IMG/VR virus record: IMGVR_UViG_3300047470_000257 | Location: 1-27,319 of that record | Direction: 5' to 3' (one strand) | DNA from: a virus | Length of the DNA: 27,319 nucleotides | In this document: in pieces, positions 1,434-20,792 of the stretch | Layout of the letters: each line of letters begins with the position of its first letter | Numbering within the stretch: position 1 is the first letter of the stretch | Notes under the pieces: model-generated | Told to the model about the DNA's origin: nothing | Seen by the model: only the letters and a program-made list of their open reading frames with translations | Database searches by the model: none | Made by a program: the position numbers and the translations under genes

Positions 1434-2159
1434 TTAGACGGCCATCTCGGCCTGGGTTTCTCGTTGCCAGATGGGTGAACTGTTGTGCGCTTCGATGCGA
1501 TCCGCTATGACGTTGGCGCGCTGGCCGGCGGTAGGCGGGGCGTACATTCCGAAACGGCTGATGCTGCCGCCGTTGACCGCTGCGTTTGTGGAGTCAGCCG
1601 AGGAGAATGGCAGGTGCTGGAAGATCGCTGGGTCGAGCATGCGCAGACCGTGAAGGCGGCAAGCGGGCCGACCTTGGTCGTCGCAGATGGCGTCCATCGC
1701 TGAGCCGATACGCTTCCACCATGCTGACGTTCCTGGGCTCGCCCACTGGCCGGAGCTGCCAATTGCCACCGTTGGCCAGTCAGCAGCCAGGCGAGCAAGA
1801 CGCTCGAGCGATTCATGCAGATGCCAAACCGGTACTCCGCGCAACTCCGCCGGCCATGCCGTCAGCAGTGCGTCGTTCGCGGCTTCGTCCCCATCGATGA
1901 CGTCGGGGATCAGCGCCCAATCGAAACCCGGGTGCCTGTGCCATTGCTCAACCCAACGGGTGTATCCGTCGACGTCAAGCTTGCCGCCTTTCTTCCAGAC
2001 CGAAAATGCACCGTTGTCGAAGACGAACGACCGGCAAACGTCGGCGACGATGCCCATGTCGTCTTGGCGCGGGAACGGCACGAGGGCGTGCCGGCCGGCA
2101 AGGAACCGTGCACCGTCTTGTCGAGTTCCTCCGATTGGCGTGCCGTGATACGCAATCAT
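1434..2159 (-). CDS. TGT/DpdA-like TIM-barrel protein (candidate)
   Basis: This 241-residue protein has the order of motifs that I associate with phage DpdA and tRNA-guanine transglycosylase-like barrels: FDNGAFSVW around Asp48, an IPDVIDGD strand near 84-91, VPVWHLHE at 109-116, TVAIGSSG at 130-137, LHGLRML at 169-175, and SSADSTN at 186-192 with Asp189. Such enzymes exchange guanine for a 7-deazaguanine base in tRNA or, for DpdA, in DNA. No Cys-rich zinc site of bacterial TGT is visible. No preQ0 synthesis gene lies in the window, so any substrate would have to come from the host queuosine pathway. It overlaps the preceding 89-residue gene by ATGA, so they are probably translationally coupled. 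The superfamily call is moderate; an unrelated TIM-barrel remains possible. Confidence 0.5.
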   Translation of the reverse strand: MIAYHGTPIGGTRQDGARFLAGRHALVPFPRQDDMGIVADVCRSFVFDNGAFSVWKKGGKLDVDGYTRWVEQWHRHPGFDWALIPDVIDGDEAANDALLTAWPAELRGVPVWHLHESLERLARLAADWPTVAIGSSGQWASPGTSAWWKRIGSAMDAICDDQGRPACRLHGLRMLDPAIFQHLPFSSADSTNAAVNGGSISRFGMYAPPTAGQRANVIADRIEAHNSSPIWQRETQAEMAV

Positions 2160-2425
2160 CCACTGAGCCTCATTGTTTCGATCTCGACGCCCTGGTGGGT
2201 GGCGATGATTGTTTGATTACCACCCAGCGCTTCAGACAGGCGATCGGCAATCTGTTCGTGCCAGCCTTTCTTGATGATCGCCGTCGCGGCCTTGATGTGT
2301 TCAACGTGGATCATCTTCGACGACCGAACCTCCAGCTGGTAGATGATCATTTCGCCGTCGGCTGGGCAGACGGCTGCGAAGGGGTGTCGGTAAATATTCA
2401 CGCGCAGTCCTCGCCCGCCGTTCAC
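2156..2425 (-). CDS. Unknown 89-aa protein, coupled to the DpdA-like gene
   Basis: I do not recognise this family. The protein is compact, starts with MNGGRGLRVNIYRHPFAAV and contains an alternating hydrophobic segment (EMIIYQLEVRSSKMIHVEHI) that looks like two beta strands, then a helix (IKKGWHEQIADRLSEALGG) and a final strand (QTIIATHQGVEIETM). An alpha/beta fold is likely. Its TGA overlaps the ATG of the TGT-like gene (ATGA), a common sign of coupled translation and joint function. It could be a partner or substrate-handling subunit of that protein, but this rests only on the arrangement. A shorter start at the internal methionine of EMIIY would lose conserved-looking sequence, so the first ATG is preferred. 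Confidence 0.7.
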   Translation of the reverse strand: MNGGRGLRVNIYRHPFAAVCPADGEMIIYQLEVRSSKMIHVEHIKAATAIIKKGWHEQIADRLSEALGGNQTIIATHQGVEIETMRLSG

Positions 2426-2565: not shown

Positions 2566-2622
2566 TCAGGTTCGAAGCCCCTTGCAGCAGTACACGTAGA
2601 CGAACCCGGCGAGGGCGATCAT
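2566..2622 (-). CDS. Possible 18-aa hydrophobic peptide
   Basis: A very short frame, MIALAGFVYVYCCKGLRT, starts with an ATG that overlaps the TGA of the ASCH-like gene (ATGA). It is hydrophobic with two cysteines and a basic end, so it could be a single-span membrane peptide. Only the coupling supports it. The rest of the 2426-2565 spacer shows nothing else that I can call. Confidence 0.25.
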   Translation of the reverse strand: MIALAGFVYVYCCKGLRT

Positions 2623-3290
2623 GGTGTCACCCGCTTGAATTCGACGACCCAGACCCATGGATTGGCGCTCCAATCACCGCCAACAGAATCCCAAAGGCCC
2701 GCAAAGGCCTTTGCTGCCGTCGTCTGCAAGCCGGTCTTCCCATCGTCAGGCCCGACCATATAGCCGGTGCAAATCGGCCAGCCGTCATCGGGTCGGAAAG
2801 CTACGCCGACGATGCCTTCGGCAATTGCCTGCGCTTCGCTGATGTCCTGCAACCGCTCGACGCGCACTTCGGTGATCTCCAGCAGGATGCGGCCGGAGTG
2901 CCTGTGCATGTGAATGCTTGGCTTCCACTTCACTGGGTACTCTTGACCCTCTGCCGACTTGCAGTAGATGGCGTCTGGGTTGGTGGCGCGATATACGATG
3001 TGTTCGCCGGTACAGCCCCCGTAGTGCCGGATCTGTAAGCCCCAGGACTCGCGCACCCACAGCCGGTCGCCGGGCTTGCCGAATGGGCAGCAATGCTTGG
3101 AGAAGTTGCGGGCAGTCTCGCGATCGTCAGTGCCGCATCCGAACTGGTGGCCTTCCCACGAAAAGCCAGAGTCTTCGGTTAGCACTGGCTGCGGATTCAC
3201 CGCCCTTCGCGTGACCGTCTTCCGGCCTTCCAGGATGGCGCGCACCATCGGGGCCGAGAACACGATCGGCCGTTCCTTTATCTCAGACAT
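2619..3290 (-). CDS. ASCH/PUA-like phage protein
   Basis: The 223-residue protein starts MSEIKERPIVFSAPMVRAIL and has EGRKTVTRRAV at residues 21-31, the start pattern of phage proteins with an ASCH (PUA-like) fold that are sometimes annotated as morphogenetic proteins. Further along come PGDRLWVRESWG (72-83) and ITEVRVERLQDISEAQA near 138-154. The last is the typical ASCH ending, where a strand is followed by a helix. ASCH domains are thought to bind RNA or nucleotides, but the biochemical role of this subgroup is unknown to me. The C-terminus (NPWVWVVEFKRV) closes the barrel. A good ribosome site (AAGGA) precedes the ATG. Two palindromes lie in its leader and may control it. Confidence 0.7.
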   Translation of the reverse strand: MSEIKERPIVFSAPMVRAILEGRKTVTRRAVNPQPVLTEDSGFSWEGHQFGCGTDDRETARNFSKHCCPFGKPGDRLWVRESWGLQIRHYGGCTGEHIVYRATNPDAIYCKSAEGQEYPVKWKPSIHMHRHSGRILLEITEVRVERLQDISEAQAIAEGIVGVAFRPDDGWPICTGYMVGPDDGKTGLQTTAAKAFAGLWDSVGGDWSANPWVWVVEFKRVTP

Positions 3291-4183: not shown

Positions 4184-4879
4184 ATGAAAGATAAATTTGT
4201 TTGGCTAGGTTGCTTTTTGTTGTTTTTGGTAGGTGTTGTGTTTGGAAGGCTCACCTTTCCCAGCGATTTTTTTAAAGTAGGAAATGTTCACGACCTTTTT
4301 GATATGTTTGGTTTGCTTGCAACTGTTTGTGCAATATTCGTAGCGTTAGTAGGATTGAATACATGGAGAGAGCAAGCAAAGGCTTCTGCAGATCATGAGT
4401 TGGCCGCCGAGTTAATAGTTGCATTGCGCCAATATCAGCAAGAAATTATTAAGTGTTGGTATTATGCTGAATCTTCCGTCGCTCAGATTAAAAACAATAC
4501 TTGGATAGGCAGCGGTGGTAGAGATAGCTATCTGGTAGATATCTATGAAAGGAGACTTAAGGATATGCAAGTTTCAAGGGTTGCACTTGAATCTCTTGAA
4601 TTGAAGTGCGCCGAGTTGTGGGGTGGTATCTTCGACTCAGGATTGAAGAAAGGTTATCAGGTAGAGGTTACATTTTGCTCATTCATAAATAGCTACTTGA
4701 CGCTATTAATAAGTGGGACGTTTGATCCAATTAAGGAAGGCATATCTGAAAGGGCATTGGCCCACTGGAAAGCTTTAATTGAGCGAGGCCTAGTGGACGA
4801 ACAGTCAGTGACGGAGTTTGTCGAGGGTCTATATTCGGATTTTCGGCTGCAACTCCGCCGGAAAATGATCACGGTTTAA
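4184..4879 (+). CDS. Membrane protein of opposite-strand cassette, gene 1
   Basis: This 231-residue protein has two predicted membrane spans, about residues 5-22 (FVWLGCFLLFLVGVVFG) and 40-59 (FGLLATVCAIFVALVGL), followed by NTWREQAKASADHELAAELI and a long, mostly helical cytoplasmic part. The layout of two N-terminal spans followed by WREQ and a helical domain recurs in membrane proteins of unknown function on mobile elements. The gene points against the surrounding early operon and is much richer in AT than its neighbours, signs of recent acquisition as a lysogenic-conversion (moron) gene. There is no good ribosome site before the ATG, so the start is uncertain. TAAAAT at 4169-4174 could be a -10 element, but no good -35 is seen. 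Superinfection exclusion is a reasonable guess but unsupported. Confidence 0.8.
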   Translation: MKDKFVWLGCFLLFLVGVVFGRLTFPSDFFKVGNVHDLFDMFGLLATVCAIFVALVGLNTWREQAKASADHELAAELIVALRQYQQEIIKCWYYAESSVAQIKNNTWIGSGGRDSYLVDIYERRLKDMQVSRVALESLELKCAELWGGIFDSGLKKGYQVEVTFCSFINSYLTLLISGTFDPIKEGISERALAHWKALIERGLVDEQSVTEFVEGLYSDFRLQLRRKMITV

Positions 4880-4913
4880 TTCGGCCCGGCATGGAGCCGG
4901 ATCAGGGGAATGA

Positions 4914-5411
4914 ATGCAAAAAAAGTTAGGTCTTGCCGTGCGCGCAGGCTTCGCACTGTTGGCGGTAACTGTCATCGCACTTCCCATAGCATTGCTCGCA
5001 AAGGCAATTACGTTTGGGACGTTCAGTGCAATTGCAGTTGTTTGGCTGTTGGTGTCTGCCGTCCTGATCTTAAACGACAGCATCACTGAGATTACGATTT
5101 GGAAGGCTTCAATCAAACGGGATGCAACTGCTACACGGGCTGCTCGCGAAGAGGTCGAGGCTATTCGTGATCAATTGCGGAAAATATCGGCCGCCTCGGT
5201 CGAAAACACTTACATAATTTCGGGTGAGTTATTGTTGCTGACGCAAAGGCTGTTTGGCGCCCAAGACGTGATGAATATTAAACAAAGCCCCGGAATGCTC
5301 AGGCTCATTCAAAATATGAATGATGTTTGGAAATTCGTTGAGCCTGACGAGGTTAAAGCGGAGCAACTGAGAAAACATATAAGGAAAGAACTCGGAATGC
5401 CGGACGAGTAA
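4914..5411 (+). CDS. Membrane/coiled-coil protein of cassette, gene 2
   Basis: The 165-residue product has two adjacent membrane spans, about residues 8-29 (AVRAGFALLAVTVIALPIAL) and 34-55 (FGTFSAIAVVWLLVSAVLIL), then a charged coiled coil around 65-92 (KRDATATRAAREEVEAIRDQ) and a helical tail. A ribosome site (AGGGGA) precedes the ATG. It follows gene 1 by 34 bases in the same direction and ends at a terminator-like hairpin, so the two form a self-contained bicistronic unit inserted in the left arm. Both are membrane proteins with cytoplasmic helical domains and may act as a complex at the inner membrane. No family is recognised. Confidence 0.8.
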   Translation: MQKKLGLAVRAGFALLAVTVIALPIALLAKAITFGTFSAIAVVWLLVSAVLILNDSITEITIWKASIKRDATATRAAREEVEAIRDQLRKISAASVENTYIISGELLLLTQRLFGAQDVMNIKQSPGMLRLIQNMNDVWKFVEPDEVKAEQLRKHIRKELGMPDE

Positions 5412-11497: not shown

Positions 11498-12484
11498 TCA
11501 ATGACTCGGACGGCGATCAACATCGCTCAGGATGGTATTTAGGGTGTTCCAGTAGCCGGGAAGTGGCCATCTATCAATCAAGTCATCGGTATCATGATTT
11601 AGCGCTAACCAGTAAACGAAAAGAACCGCTGCTTGATTAAACATCGGCACTGTAGCGGCTCTCTTGGCAATATTGAGCGCTATATATTTTTTTTGGCTCA
11701 GGAACGCATAGATCTGAGCGGCTAAGCTGTCACCGACCAGCTCTCGGAATTCATCCGCTAGCACTGAGGCACTCTTGTCGTCAGCGGCGAGATATTGTTC
11801 TCCAATTTTTTCACTGTAGATATCCGTGAGCTCCTTCAAGAGTTCCACTTTAGGGGCGTTAGCCTCCCTTAGAAGCTCCATCGTTCTGCAGAACAAGTCA
11901 TCTGTGGTTTCCATCAGCGCCATGCTTCGCGCAACATGGCGCTCCGCCTTAGCTGGGACAAAGCCAGAAGGCTTGTATATGTTGTCGTGGACCATTTCTG
12001 CATAGGCGTGCTGAAGAAGGGTTCTGACCTGAACCTCGCAGCACATATCGACGGTGATGGTGAATCCCTCCAGCTCTATGGGCTGTTTTGGACGGACTTC
12101 AAAATGCTGTGACTGATAGTCGAAGATTTTTGTGTTTTTCTCAATCTCCGCAGCGAAGTCCCGAGACACCTTTGCGCTCCACAACTCTTCGTTTTGAATA
12201 GCTGCGCAAATGATATCGATTTCATCGGAGAGGAGGACGACGAAACGGACACCGACCAGGTCCGTCATTTCCAGCAAAGGGTCGGTGTATCCTTTGCGAC
12301 CCAGCTTACCTATCGCGGACTCTATGGTCTTCACCCTAGGCTTCACCGGAATCTTGATGAAAGCGTCGAATGAAATCCCAGCACTCTTCAGTCTCTTCTC
12401 TACCGTACTGGCGACGAAAGCCCCCCACTTGTCGTAGGTCGATTGGGAGGCATGGAGATAATGTCTGAAAGCTTCAATGTCCAC
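11498..12484 (-). CDS. RelA/SpoT-type nucleotidyltransferase
   Basis: The 328-residue protein has a complete (p)ppGpp-synthetase-like domain at about 45-172: KPRVKTIESAIGKLGRK with Arg50, Lys52 and Ser56; MTDLVGVRFVV with the metal-binding Asp75 and Arg80; YQSQHFEV at 123-130; and CEVQVRTLLQHAYAEMVHD with Glu150, Gln152, Arg154 and His159. The catalytic residues look intact, so pyrophosphate transfer to a nucleotide or to tRNA is plausible. There is no HD hydrolase domain. The C-terminal 150 residues are helical and unknown. The start is GTG in TAGTG, overlapping the stop of the NdpA-like gene, a strong sign of coupled translation. Related prophage proteins (CapRel, Phrann gp29) act in anti-phage defence, which is the best guess here. 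Confidence 0.85.
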   Translation of the reverse strand: MDIEAFRHYLHASQSTYDKWGAFVASTVEKRLKSAGISFDAFIKIPVKPRVKTIESAIGKLGRKGYTDPLLEMTDLVGVRFVVLLSDEIDIICAAIQNEELWSAKVSRDFAAEIEKNTKIFDYQSQHFEVRPKQPIELEGFTITVDMCCEVQVRTLLQHAYAEMVHDNIYKPSGFVPAKAERHVARSMALMETTDDLFCRTMELLREANAPKVELLKELTDIYSEKIGEQYLAADDKSASVLADEFRELVGDSLAAQIYAFLSQKKYIALNIAKRAATVPMFNQAAVLFVYWLALNHDTDDLIDRWPLPGYWNTLNTILSDVDRRPSH

Positions 12485-13581
12485 TATTGCTGCCTTTCAA
12501 GGTCTCCCTTGATTTTTATGACGGTCTCGCCGTCGTTGGATGCATCAATTTCGATCAGGTCCGTTGCCTCGCCTGGCGGGGTGCTGAGCCAGACTCCGTT
12601 GGTGAACACATACTTTCGCCTCCGCTTGAGCTTGGCCTGAATGTAGCCAATGTCCTTGCTGATGGCATTTTCTGGGAAGCCTTTCGTAGTCATGAAGCCA
12701 GAATATTCTGAGCGTATGGACTCCGGCATGTGCTTGGTCGAAAAGCTCGCAACGGAGATGGTAGCATCCTTGCTTCTCAACTCAGCTCGCAACGCCTCGT
12801 GAAGGTCCAGCTTCTCGTCTGCAGTGACAGGAGCTGTGTCAATGAATGCTCGAGTGAATTCAAAGAAGTCCTGCGTCAGTTTCTTCGAAGACTCCTGAAT
12901 ACTCATGCTAAGGAAGTGACTGTAAAAGTAGGCGGCAGCGCTTCTTGTCTCTGTTGCGGTCATGAGGTGGTCGAACAAGAATGCGCGGAAATTTCCTGCT
13001 GCGTATCCATCCGTTCCCGCAGGCTTGCTGGCTACCTCCACCAAAAAACCGATCTTGTAGAGTCGTTGAGAGTCCGTGAGCAGGATATTTGATATGTACT
13101 CAACGTCTACCTGGCCGTCATGCTCGTTCGCTCTGAACCCGTCCTGAGGTTCTGCTTTGATGACAGCCAGAAACGGAAGTGCATTCTCCCCCACGCGACC
13201 AGCAATCACAGCCAGCATTCCTCCCGGCGCGTTGGTTTGTTGCTGGGCCTTGCTAAGGGATTTCGCCAGCTCCTTTGATGCATCAATGAAGCTTTTTTCA
13301 GAAGAGTGATTCATTCCAGCGGCTATTTGGAAAAAGCTTCCGTTTTCGCTGCTGGCAATAGACATCTCAATGCCATGGGATTTGTTGCCCAGGGCATGCT
13401 GGATCCTTTGTTGCAATGTATCTAGGGCTGCTTGCGGAAGCTTCACAAGCTGGCTGCTAGTGGTGGGGGCCACGAACTCTTTCTGAGCCGATCTTGGAAA
13501 GATGCGATGTACAATGACCCGCTCGATCATCACCCCTTCAAACTTAAACTGAGTCTCTAGCGGTACTTCGATTGCACTCAT
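12484..13581 (-). CDS. NdpA/YejK-like nucleoid-associated protein
   Basis: The 365-residue protein resembles the 37-kDa nucleoid-associated family (NdpA/YejK) in order and pattern: an N-terminal strand-helix part (VIVHRIFPRSAQKEF), a central GGMLAVIAGRVGENALPFLA followed by DVEYISNILLTDSQRLYKIG and the FYSHFLSMSIQESSKKL helix, FFEFTRAFIDTAPVTADEKL, SFSTKHMPESIRSEYSGFM, and the C-terminal GETVIKIKGDL. The similarity is distant and judged by eye. Family members bind DNA nonspecifically; some mobile-element versions accompany defence proteins. An AGGGG ribosome site precedes the ATG. Its stop overlaps the GTG of the nucleotidyltransferase. It may be the sensor or the neutralising partner of that enzyme, but which is unknown. 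Confidence 0.6.
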   Translation of the reverse strand: MSAIEVPLETQFKFEGVMIERVIVHRIFPRSAQKEFVAPTTSSQLVKLPQAALDTLQQRIQHALGNKSHGIEMSIASSENGSFFQIAAGMNHSSEKSFIDASKELAKSLSKAQQQTNAPGGMLAVIAGRVGENALPFLAVIKAEPQDGFRANEHDGQVDVEYISNILLTDSQRLYKIGFLVEVASKPAGTDGYAAGNFRAFLFDHLMTATETRSAAAYFYSHFLSMSIQESSKKLTQDFFEFTRAFIDTAPVTADEKLDLHEALRAELRSKDATISVASFSTKHMPESIRSEYSGFMTTKGFPENAISKDIGYIQAKLKRRRKYVFTNGVWLSTPPGEATDLIEIDASNDGETVIKIKGDLERQQ

Positions 13582-19087: not shown

Positions 19088-19515
19088 CGCCAGCGGCTCC
19101 CAAACTATTCAAGCAGAAGCTCATGCGAGCCAAGCCAGTTGACCGGGAAGGGCAGGAACAGGCAGCGCTGATGCGCGAGCTTGAGCTACGTTACCCGGAG
19201 GTGTTCGAGTTGATGTATCACGTGCCCAACGGCGGGCATCGCGTGAAGGCCGTCGCTGGCAAGTTGAAAGCACAAGGCGTGAAGGCCGGTATTCCCGATC
19301 TGGTTTTGACCATGGCCCGTGGCGGCTACTTTGGTCTGTACATCGAGTTCAAGGCCACGCCGCCGAACGATGCTGCGATCTCGCCCAATCAGCACGAACG
19401 CATTCGCAAGCTCAATGACCAGGGTTATCTGGCGGTCGTATGTCGCGGGCATTTCGACACGACGGAGCAAATTCGCGCCTACCTGCGGCTCGCTCCGACA
19501 GTGGTGGCCGCATGA
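19084..19515 (+). CDS. VRR-NUC domain nuclease
   Basis: The 143-residue protein is a stand-alone VRR-NUC nuclease of the PD-(D/E)XK fold: REGQEQAALMRELELRYPEV at 21-40 with the acidic helix, HVPNGGHRV at 46-54, then GIPDLVLTMARGGYFGLYIE at 69-88 with catalytic Asp72, and IEFKA with Glu88 and Lys90. Phage members of this family are thought to process DNA structures, perhaps Holliday junctions or forks. It lies between replication genes and a second recombinase, so a role in recombination or in resolving replication intermediates is likely. Its stop overlaps the recombinase start. Confidence 0.9.
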   Translation: MTPAAPKLFKQKLMRAKPVDREGQEQAALMRELELRYPEVFELMYHVPNGGHRVKAVAGKLKAQGVKAGIPDLVLTMARGGYFGLYIEFKATPPNDAAISPNQHERIRKLNDQGYLAVVCRGHFDTTEQIRAYLRLAPTVVAA

Positions 19516-20792
19516 CCAGTGCTGCCGTGAAGATGTCCGACGCCGAAATCAAACGGCAGGCTGCCGGCGATGTCCGGGATCTGCGCGACATTGAGAATCG
19601 CGGCCTGTACCTGCGCTTCACCCGGGCTCGGAAACGTGCGTCTTGGTACTTGGTGGTGAAGGGCGAGTGGAAGCGAATCGGCGCCTTCCCGGATCTCAAC
19701 ACCAAGCAGGTGGTCGCGGCGCTGCCGGCTATCCGTCTCCGCTTGGAGGCCGGTACCGGGGCGAACCTGTCGAAGTGGGTCACTGTTGGCGAGCTGCTGG
19801 ACTGGTACGCCGAGCGCATGTCGCGTGACCGCAATCTGTCGAGCAAGCGCAAGAAGACCGGCGCCTCGGCCATCAAGTGCCACCTCATCCCGCGCCTGGG
19901 TGACCTGCCACTGACCGGCATCGACAAGGCGACCCTCGACAGCCAGCTCATGTGGCCGCTGCAGGAAAGCATTTCTATCGACTACGTGCGCTCGGTGTTC
20001 CAGCTGCTGGCCCTGGCCTTTCGCCAGGCGTTCAAGCTGGGGCTGATCTCGGCCAACCCGATGGCAACCATTAAGTTCAACGACTTCTCCAAGGCCAAGG
20101 TCGGGATCAAGCCGTCTCGCCTGCGTGGGGTGCAGCTGTCGGGTCTGCTGGAGCAGCTGGACGCCGTCATGGTATCCGCGCCGCTGGATGCCATGCTCGC
20201 CTTGATGATGCTCTGCCACGGCACGCGCATCGGCGAAACCCGTCAGGCGCGCTGGTCGCACATCAGCTTGGCTGAGCGCGAGTGGTTCATCCCGGCCGAG
20301 CACACCAAGACCGGCGCCGAGCATCACCTGCCATTGACCGAACAGGTATGTGCGCTGCTGATGTGGTACCGCGACGGTCAATACGCCCGTGGCTATGACG
20401 GCCAATTCCTGTTCCCGGCACGCAACGGAAAGGCATTGAGCGAAGGCCAGGCCAGCGCCGTGTTCGCCCGATTGGGGCAGGGCGAGTGGACAAGCCATGA
20501 CCTGCGCAAGGTGGCCCGTACCGGATGGGCAGACCTTGGCATTGACCACCTGATCGGCGAGCTGCTGATCAACCACGCGATGGGCCACAACGTGAAGGTG
20601 TACATCCAGTCGGACGTGATGGGTCGCAAGCGTGATGCCTTGGAACAGTGGCACGCCCATCTAGACCAGAAGGGTTTTGCCCTGATTCACGGATTGACCG
20701 GCTTTAGATTCGGAGATTCTGGTAATCCGCTGGAAGCCGCAGAACATAAGGCCTGCGAGGCCATTCAAGAATCAACCATAGGCGAGGTTTAA
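19512..20792 (+). CDS. Second tyrosine recombinase
   Basis: This 426-residue protein is a tyrosine recombinase distinct from the left-end integrase. An N-terminal DNA-binding part (11-60: AEIKRQAAGDVRDLRDIENR) resembles the P4/CP4-type arm-binding domain. The catalytic domain has Arg239 in CHGTRIGETRQARW, Lys266 in EHTKTGAE, His329 and Arg332 in SHDLRKVAR, His355 in INHAMGH, and Tyr364 in VKVYIQSD. All catalytic residues are present. It is coupled to the VRR-NUC gene by an ATGA overlap, so it is expressed with the replication genes. Its job may be multimer resolution or a replacement for a Holliday-junction resolvase, rather than integration. The start is the ATG at 19512; longer frames overlap the nuclease gene. 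Confidence 0.9.
   Translation: MTSAAVKMSDAEIKRQAAGDVRDLRDIENRGLYLRFTRARKRASWYLVVKGEWKRIGAFPDLNTKQVVAALPAIRLRLEAGTGANLSKWVTVGELLDWYAERMSRDRNLSSKRKKTGASAIKCHLIPRLGDLPLTGIDKATLDSQLMWPLQESISIDYVRSVFQLLALAFRQAFKLGLISANPMATIKFNDFSKAKVGIKPSRLRGVQLSGLLEQLDAVMVSAPLDAMLALMMLCHGTRIGETRQARWSHISLAEREWFIPAEHTKTGAEHHLPLTEQVCALLMWYRDGQYARGYDGQFLFPARNGKALSEGQASAVFARLGQGEWTSHDLRKVARTGWADLGIDHLIGELLINHAMGHNVKVYIQSDVMGRKRDALEQWHAHLDQKGFALIHGLTGFRFGDSGNPLEAAEHKACEAIQESTIGEV

Follow-up and report, generated by a model that had tools for sequence, protein, structure and literature searches.

The stretch of DNA analysed here, referred to as the window, is a 27-kb virus fragment (27,319 nucleotides; IMG/VR record IMGVR_UViG_3300047470_000257) from a Pseudomonas prophage, which carries a two-gene module on the minus strand. 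The gene at positions 1434 to 2159 encodes a DpdA-like guanine transglycosylase of 241 amino acids, identified by its match to phrog_887, its AlphaFold2 model and its similarity to the DpdA protein of phage MED16, whereas the gene at 2156 to 2401 encodes a partner protein of 81 amino acids, assigned to phrog_37496, for which the AlphaFold2 model and matches to PDB structures indicate a miniature QueF-Like fold. The genes for an excisionase (1156 to 1392; DUF4224, E = 2.8e-9; phrog_4764 excisionase, E = 3.3e-30) and a tyrosine integrase (85 to 1152; Phage_integrase, E = 1.3e-8; phrog_1, E = 8.7e-36) were located directly downstream of dpdA on the same strand, as expected from an earlier, sequence-only reading that had placed dpdA beside the integrase. 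Upstream of the pair, also on the minus strand, the gene at 2619 to 3290 encodes a phrog_874 protein (E = 7.3e-75) that matched ASCH below the cut-off only, and phrog_874/ASCH-like genes were present in 57 fetched loci, a number in which overlapping fetches are counted.

A few features elsewhere in the window were also noted. Two divergent membrane-type ORFs of no clear family, possibly morons, were located at 4184 to 5411 on the plus strand, inside the early minus-strand operon. The minus-strand gene at 11498 to 13581 encodes a protein with a RelA_SpoT domain (Pfam, 4.9e-14; PADLOC PDC-S33, 8.6e-11) and overlaps the upstream gene for an NA37 nucleoid-associated protein by about one base, and these 2 genes may represent a defence or toxin-type pair. 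In addition to the integrase gene at 85 to 1152, a second tyrosine integrase gene was identified at 19440 to 20792 on the plus strand (Pfam, 3.9e-18), with 80% DNA sequence identity to Pseudomonas phage PseuP_224.

The stop codon of the partner gene and the start codon of dpdA overlap in the sequence ATGA (2156 to 2159), through which the 2 genes appear to be translationally coupled, and a Shine-Dalgarno sequence, GAGG, is located within the partner gene 8 nucleotides before the ATG of dpdA (2168 to 2171). The partner and dpdA genes have remained adjacent in most of the related loci. The sequence-only reading had described the overlap correctly but had assigned a length of 89 amino acids to the partner, starting from the GTG codon at 2425. 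The GTG codon at 2401 is the more likely start, since it is preceded at a distance of 6 nucleotides by a Shine-Dalgarno sequence, GAGGA (2408 to 2412), the homologues share this first residue and in most cases use ATG or GTG as the start codon, and the PHROG and tblastn similarity of the 89-residue ORF begins at residue 8 to 9.

The DpdA protein contained the 5 ordered motifs on which the sequence-only reading had based its identification: DNGAF (residues 48 to 52), IPD (84 to 86), VAIGSSG (131 to 137), LHGL (169 to 172), and SADS (187 to 190). In an alignment of 25 diverse homologues, residues D48, D86, G134, S135, H170, L172, S187, D189, and S190 were invariant, and the motifs are therefore not due to chance. 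The probable catalytic residues are D48, D86, and D189 (codons at 2016 to 2018, 1902 to 1904, and 1593 to 1595), which would be equivalent to the catalytic residues of the tRNA-guanine transglycosylases (TGTs). The protein matched phrog_887, named queuine tRNA-ribosyltransferase in PHROGs, with an E-value of 8.6e-68, and tblastn searches identified 141 phage records at an E-value of 1e-5. The sequence identity was 40% to the DpdA protein of MED16 (tblastn, E = 7e-39) and 25% to that of CAjan (tblastn, E = 2e-5), and the DpdA proteins of CAjan, Seurat and 9g were more remotely related to the window protein than that of MED16.

No match to the DpdA protein was obtained in Pfam, NCBIfam, or PADLOC. 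The canonical TGT domain, PF01702, had no match in the window at an E-value of 0.001 and none on the DpdA protein at an E-value of 1. The structural zinc site of canonical TGTs consists of clustered cysteines in a CxCxxC-type motif, whereas the DpdA protein had 3 scattered cysteines and no CxCxxC cluster. Because PF01702 was unmatched and the zinc-site cluster absent, the protein of 241 amino acids is, as judged from its sequence, a compact DpdA and not a canonical TGT; it is much shorter than the bacterial and archaeal TGTs, with which it shares the TIM-barrel topology and the ordered Asp/Gly motifs.

The AlphaFold2 model of the DpdA protein (pLDDT 89.4, pTM 0.87) was examined by a structure search, which the sequence-only reading had proposed as the means to tell a DpdA from a member of another TIM-barrel family. 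With Foldseek alone, the YdjI aldolase and other TIM barrels ranked highest, with weak E-values, but realignment with VIA brought the TGTs to the top, and another family such as that of the aldolase was rejected. The best structural alignment was to an archaeal TGT (Z = 16.0, 3.3 Å, 220 amino acids), followed by human and bacterial TGTs and Cap10; nearly all of the top alignments were to TGTs, with Z-scores of 14 to 16 over 210 to 222 amino acids. The proposed TGT/DpdA-like identity is thus borne out by phrog_887, by the similarity to MED16 and CAjan, and by the structural alignments. It was also noted that the third-best match was 9ntn_B, the Cap10 protein of a CBASS system (NDG modification), which hints at a kinship between the deazaguanine DNA enzymes and CBASS Cap10.

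The partner family, phrog_37496, is of unknown function in PHROGs. In an alignment of 30 sequences, for which relatives were gathered by further scans, the invariant residues were N2, Y4, F8, C12, P13, Y21, E49, A52, G61, H69, and G71. Cys12 (codon at 2366 to 2368) was the only conserved cysteine. His48 was replaced by Gln in some members, whereas the adjacent Glu49 (codon at 2255 to 2257) was invariant, and residue 15 was either Asp or Asn. Both genes of the module have evolved under purifying selection, with median dN/dS values of 0.064 and 0.079. Searches with partner profiles against Pfam, NCBIfam, and the PDB sequence profiles yielded nothing significant, and the hhalign comparison to QueF was not significant (probability 0.6%). 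For Nup54, lumazine synthase, and Bdr, the E-values were above 0.01 and no motif was shared, and these matches were attributed to chance.

The AlphaFold2 model of the partner (pLDDT 96.3) had the strand-strand-helix-helix-strand-strand order of a β2-α2-β2 T-fold. The top ten Foldseek matches were all to archaeosine synthase QueF-Like (best E = 2.3e-4, probability 1.00), and the next group was GTP cyclohydrolase I. With VIA, the model aligned to QueF-Like of Pyrobaculum calidifontis (5jyx/5k0p) over 81 of 81 residues with a Z-score of 13.2, an rmsd of 1.1 Å and 22% identity, as compared to a Z-score of 9.7 for unimodular QueF. The T-fold cores can be fully superposed, and the 2 proteins share the nucleophilic cysteine of the CP motif, the anchoring glutamate of the HE motif and the GVE strand. 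The partner profile was in register with the QueF-Like sequence for C12-P13 with C21-P22, for a further E, for H48-E49 with H62-E63 (HE-x-A shared), and for GVEIE with GVEVE, where the QueF-Like sequence used was that of PDB 5jyx (100% across 101 residues). Only 3 of 4752 shuffles were not outscored by this profile alignment, which is suggestive and is the sole hint of the similarity at the level of sequence.

The partner also differed from QueF-Like in several respects. It is shorter (81 versus about 109 amino acids), and it is paired with DpdA whereas QueF-Like is paired with an archaeal TGT. The general acid/base of QueF-Like, Asp28, aligns with Ile19 of the partner, and with Asp or Asn at the nearby residue 15 we consider the general acid not to be conserved. 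Since this defining residue is lacking, the partner is not filed here as a QueF-Like orthologue, although its modelled fold and its proposed action resemble those of QueF-Like; it was assigned on the grounds of its structure, its conserved residues, and its linkage to DpdA. The ESKSxKLY motif for NADPH binding in QueF, which QueF-Like also lacks, was absent from the partner, which reads VEHIKAATA, and a QueF-type reductase that yields dPreQ1 is disfavoured by the missing motif. Likewise, GTP cyclohydrolase I (FolE) has a Zn-binding set of Cys and His residues, and this identity is disfavoured by the single conserved cysteine of the partner. The sequence-only reading had called the DpdA stand-alone with a coupled small partner; with a QueF-Like fold in the partner, which is therefore not a generic small protein, the module is not truly stand-alone. 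No paper linking phrog_37496 to QueF-Like or DpdA was found in a literature search, which is not proof that none exists.

To describe the linkage between the genes, 166 distinct dpdA/partner nucleotide pairs were compared. Both genes were present in 144 of these, 21 contained DpdA only, and a single one contained the partner only, such that 145 distinct loci had the partner and all but one of these had DpdA as well. DpdA was also found in all of the 80 loci that were fetched via the partner alone. Among 199 genomes of the genus Pseudomonas, the partner was identified in 9, each with an adjacent DpdA gene, and a close DpdA in 10 (Fisher P = 9e-15 for the association). The gene order was partner-DpdA in most lineages and reversed in some others, which include Acidovorax, Variovorax, and a Microcystis phage. 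At least 9 changes in the presence of the partner were mapped onto the DpdA tree, indicative of repeated gain and loss, and partners with 78% to 88% identity to that in the window were located next to DpdA proteins with identities of only 53% to 55%. The partner is thus an optional, yet DpdA-specific accessory. It had no match on plasmids, and no relatives are encoded in MED16, 7-11, or SPN3UB, for which reason it was rejected as the missing dADG enzyme of these phages.

The single exception was a partner homologue with the invariant Cys and Glu residues on a contig of 40.9 kb with no detectable DpdA (L316, 3501 to 3740), which could be explained as a fragment or as a case in which the protein is used independently. 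As a separate observation, the Pseudomonas genomes L375 and L378 contained a different TGT-like ORF of about 300 amino acids (DNGAWS...VVLPDIVAGG) beside a helicase-like ORF. This ORF matched the DpdA profile weakly (E = 2e-4) in 5 genomes, and may encode another deazaguanine or defence enzyme.

No genes for preQ0 synthesis were identified in the 27-kb record, a result that applies to the fragment only and is in line with the sequence-only reading, which had assumed that the base is supplied by the host. Both QueC and QueF were encoded in 7 of 7 host genomes of related prophages, and host preQ0 would thus be available. Genes of the YhhQ family (PF02592), to which preQ0 transporters belong, were located beside DpdA in L080, L304, and L111 and were present in Rhizobium phage RHph_X2_30. 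In L080, the transporter gene occupied the slot of the partner, whereas in L327 (2273 to 3770) it was the middle gene of a tight operon of 3 genes, flanked by those for DpdA and the mini QueF-Like partner. QueD-like (PTPS) genes were found in L099 and L112; that of L099 adjoined DpdA, as did one with a borderline score in Caulobacter phage DMCA. Genes for cytosine DNA methyltransferases were frequent neighbours.

We propose, with a probability of about 0.62, that DpdA and its partner constitute a DNA hypermodification module in which preQ0 is inserted and its nitrile is then converted. In the proposed scheme, DpdA would exchange selected guanines in the phage DNA for host-made preQ0 (7-cyano-7-deazaguanine), after which Cys12 of the partner would attack the nitrile of the inserted base to form a thioimide, with the purine anchored by Glu49. 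Release would most likely yield the formamidine dG+, with ammonia, or the amide dADG, with water. In the absence of the Asp, more than one final nucleophile is conceivable, and dG+ is therefore named tentatively as the first guess, with dADG as a somewhat less likely second. The modified DNA would probably resist host restriction; none of the enzymes tried on MED16 DNA was visibly affected by its low level of dADG. QueF-Like itself acts on preQ0-tRNA and needs a base bound to nucleic acid as well as free ammonia (PMC5485725). The points that count against the module are the unconserved Asp28, the lack of similarity to QueF in sequence profiles, the dADG of MED16 and 7-11, which do not have the partner, and L316, which contains the partner with no detectable DpdA.

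Some of the same observations could be explained if the partner instead were a binder or carrier that holds preQ0 as a covalent thioimide in its T-fold pocket and delivers the unchanged base to DpdA, in competition with host QueF, while DpdA still modifies DNA. The unconserved Asp28 agrees with this, as does the finding that QueF-Like and free preQ0 form a thioimide that is not turned over by ammonia (PMC5485725), and the optional partner is sometimes replaced by the gene for a YhhQ-family transporter (L080), which would likewise serve the supply of the precursor. The closest fold is however that of a converting enzyme, and an invariant cysteine would be needless in a carrier, which makes this explanation unlikely. 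A catalytically dead T-fold that merely regulates or scaffolds DpdA, in its assembly or DNA targeting, would account for the loss of the general acid, the extreme reduction to 81 amino acids, and the tight coupling, but hardly for the invariant Cys12 and Glu49 and the low dN/dS values. Moreover, DpdA proteins of the same group occur without the partner, and that of MED16 yields modified DNA in its absence, so we regard a purely regulatory or scaffolding role as improbable.

It is equally improbable, in our view, that the pair modifies host or phage tRNA, for example with a G+-like base that tunes translation after infection, even if the founding families of TGT and QueF-Like are tRNA enzymes (PMC5485725) and the PHROGs name of the DpdA family points in the same direction. 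Against it stand the lack of a PF01702 match and of a TGT-type zinc cluster, the modified DNA of the phages with the closest studied relatives (MED16 and CAjan), and the cytosine DNA methyltransferases often encoded nearby. By analogy with these relatives and from the gene context, DNA is favoured over tRNA as the substrate of DpdA.

DpdA without genes for preQ0 synthesis is an already published class, a point that the sequence-only reading had missed. The DNA of MED16 contains dADG, with dpdA as the only pathway gene (PMC8306585), and the DNA of CAjan contains dPreQ0, which is lost upon deletion of dpdA (PMC6884629). The window protein shares family, size class, and motifs with the stand-alone phage DpdA proteins (MED16 gp38, cluster DpdA/TGT_1; the 'third group' of Hutinet et al. 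2019), and also the lack of preQ0-synthesis genes in the record. In contrast to MED16 and 7-11, the window dpdA gene is coupled to a partner with a QueF-Like fold, and in contrast to the MED16-type systems, it resides in a prophage. A TGT-type inserter combined with a nitrile enzyme of the QueF family follows the same logic as in Streptococcus phage Dp-1, which encodes DpdA and QueF/QueF-L, whereas halovirus HVTV-1 encodes QueF-L without DpdA (PMC6884629). Phages of the Dp-1/HVTV-1 type have their own genes for the preQ0 pathway, and their QueF-type protein can be recognised from its sequence, with dPreQ1 as the product (PMC6884629); in the window, by contrast, the record lacks preQ0 genes and the partner was missed by sequence searches. 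The new element is the small partner with the predicted QueF-Like fold.

No published group is larger than that of the phages with DpdA only, for which the modification status has been described as difficult to predict (PMC6884629). Phage 7-11, a member of this group, has dADG but no known enzyme to make it, and since both MED16 and 7-11 have dADG without the partner, the partner is not required for dADG. Some of the phages in the group would thus carry a probable finishing enzyme that sequence profiles have overlooked. It is conceivable, but somewhat doubtful, that phrog_37496 represents a new, minimal family of DNA-acting, nitrile-converting T-fold enzymes with a general acid unlike that of QueF-Like, which converts dPreQ0 to dG+, dADG, or an undescribed product in many temperate phages thought to have DpdA only. 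A specific, measurable base is predicted for temperate Pseudomonas phages, and the 2 small coupled genes are a possible portable tool for marking DNA. If the module acts as proposed, the chemistry of the T-fold would reach from tRNA to DNA, by means of a very small protein.
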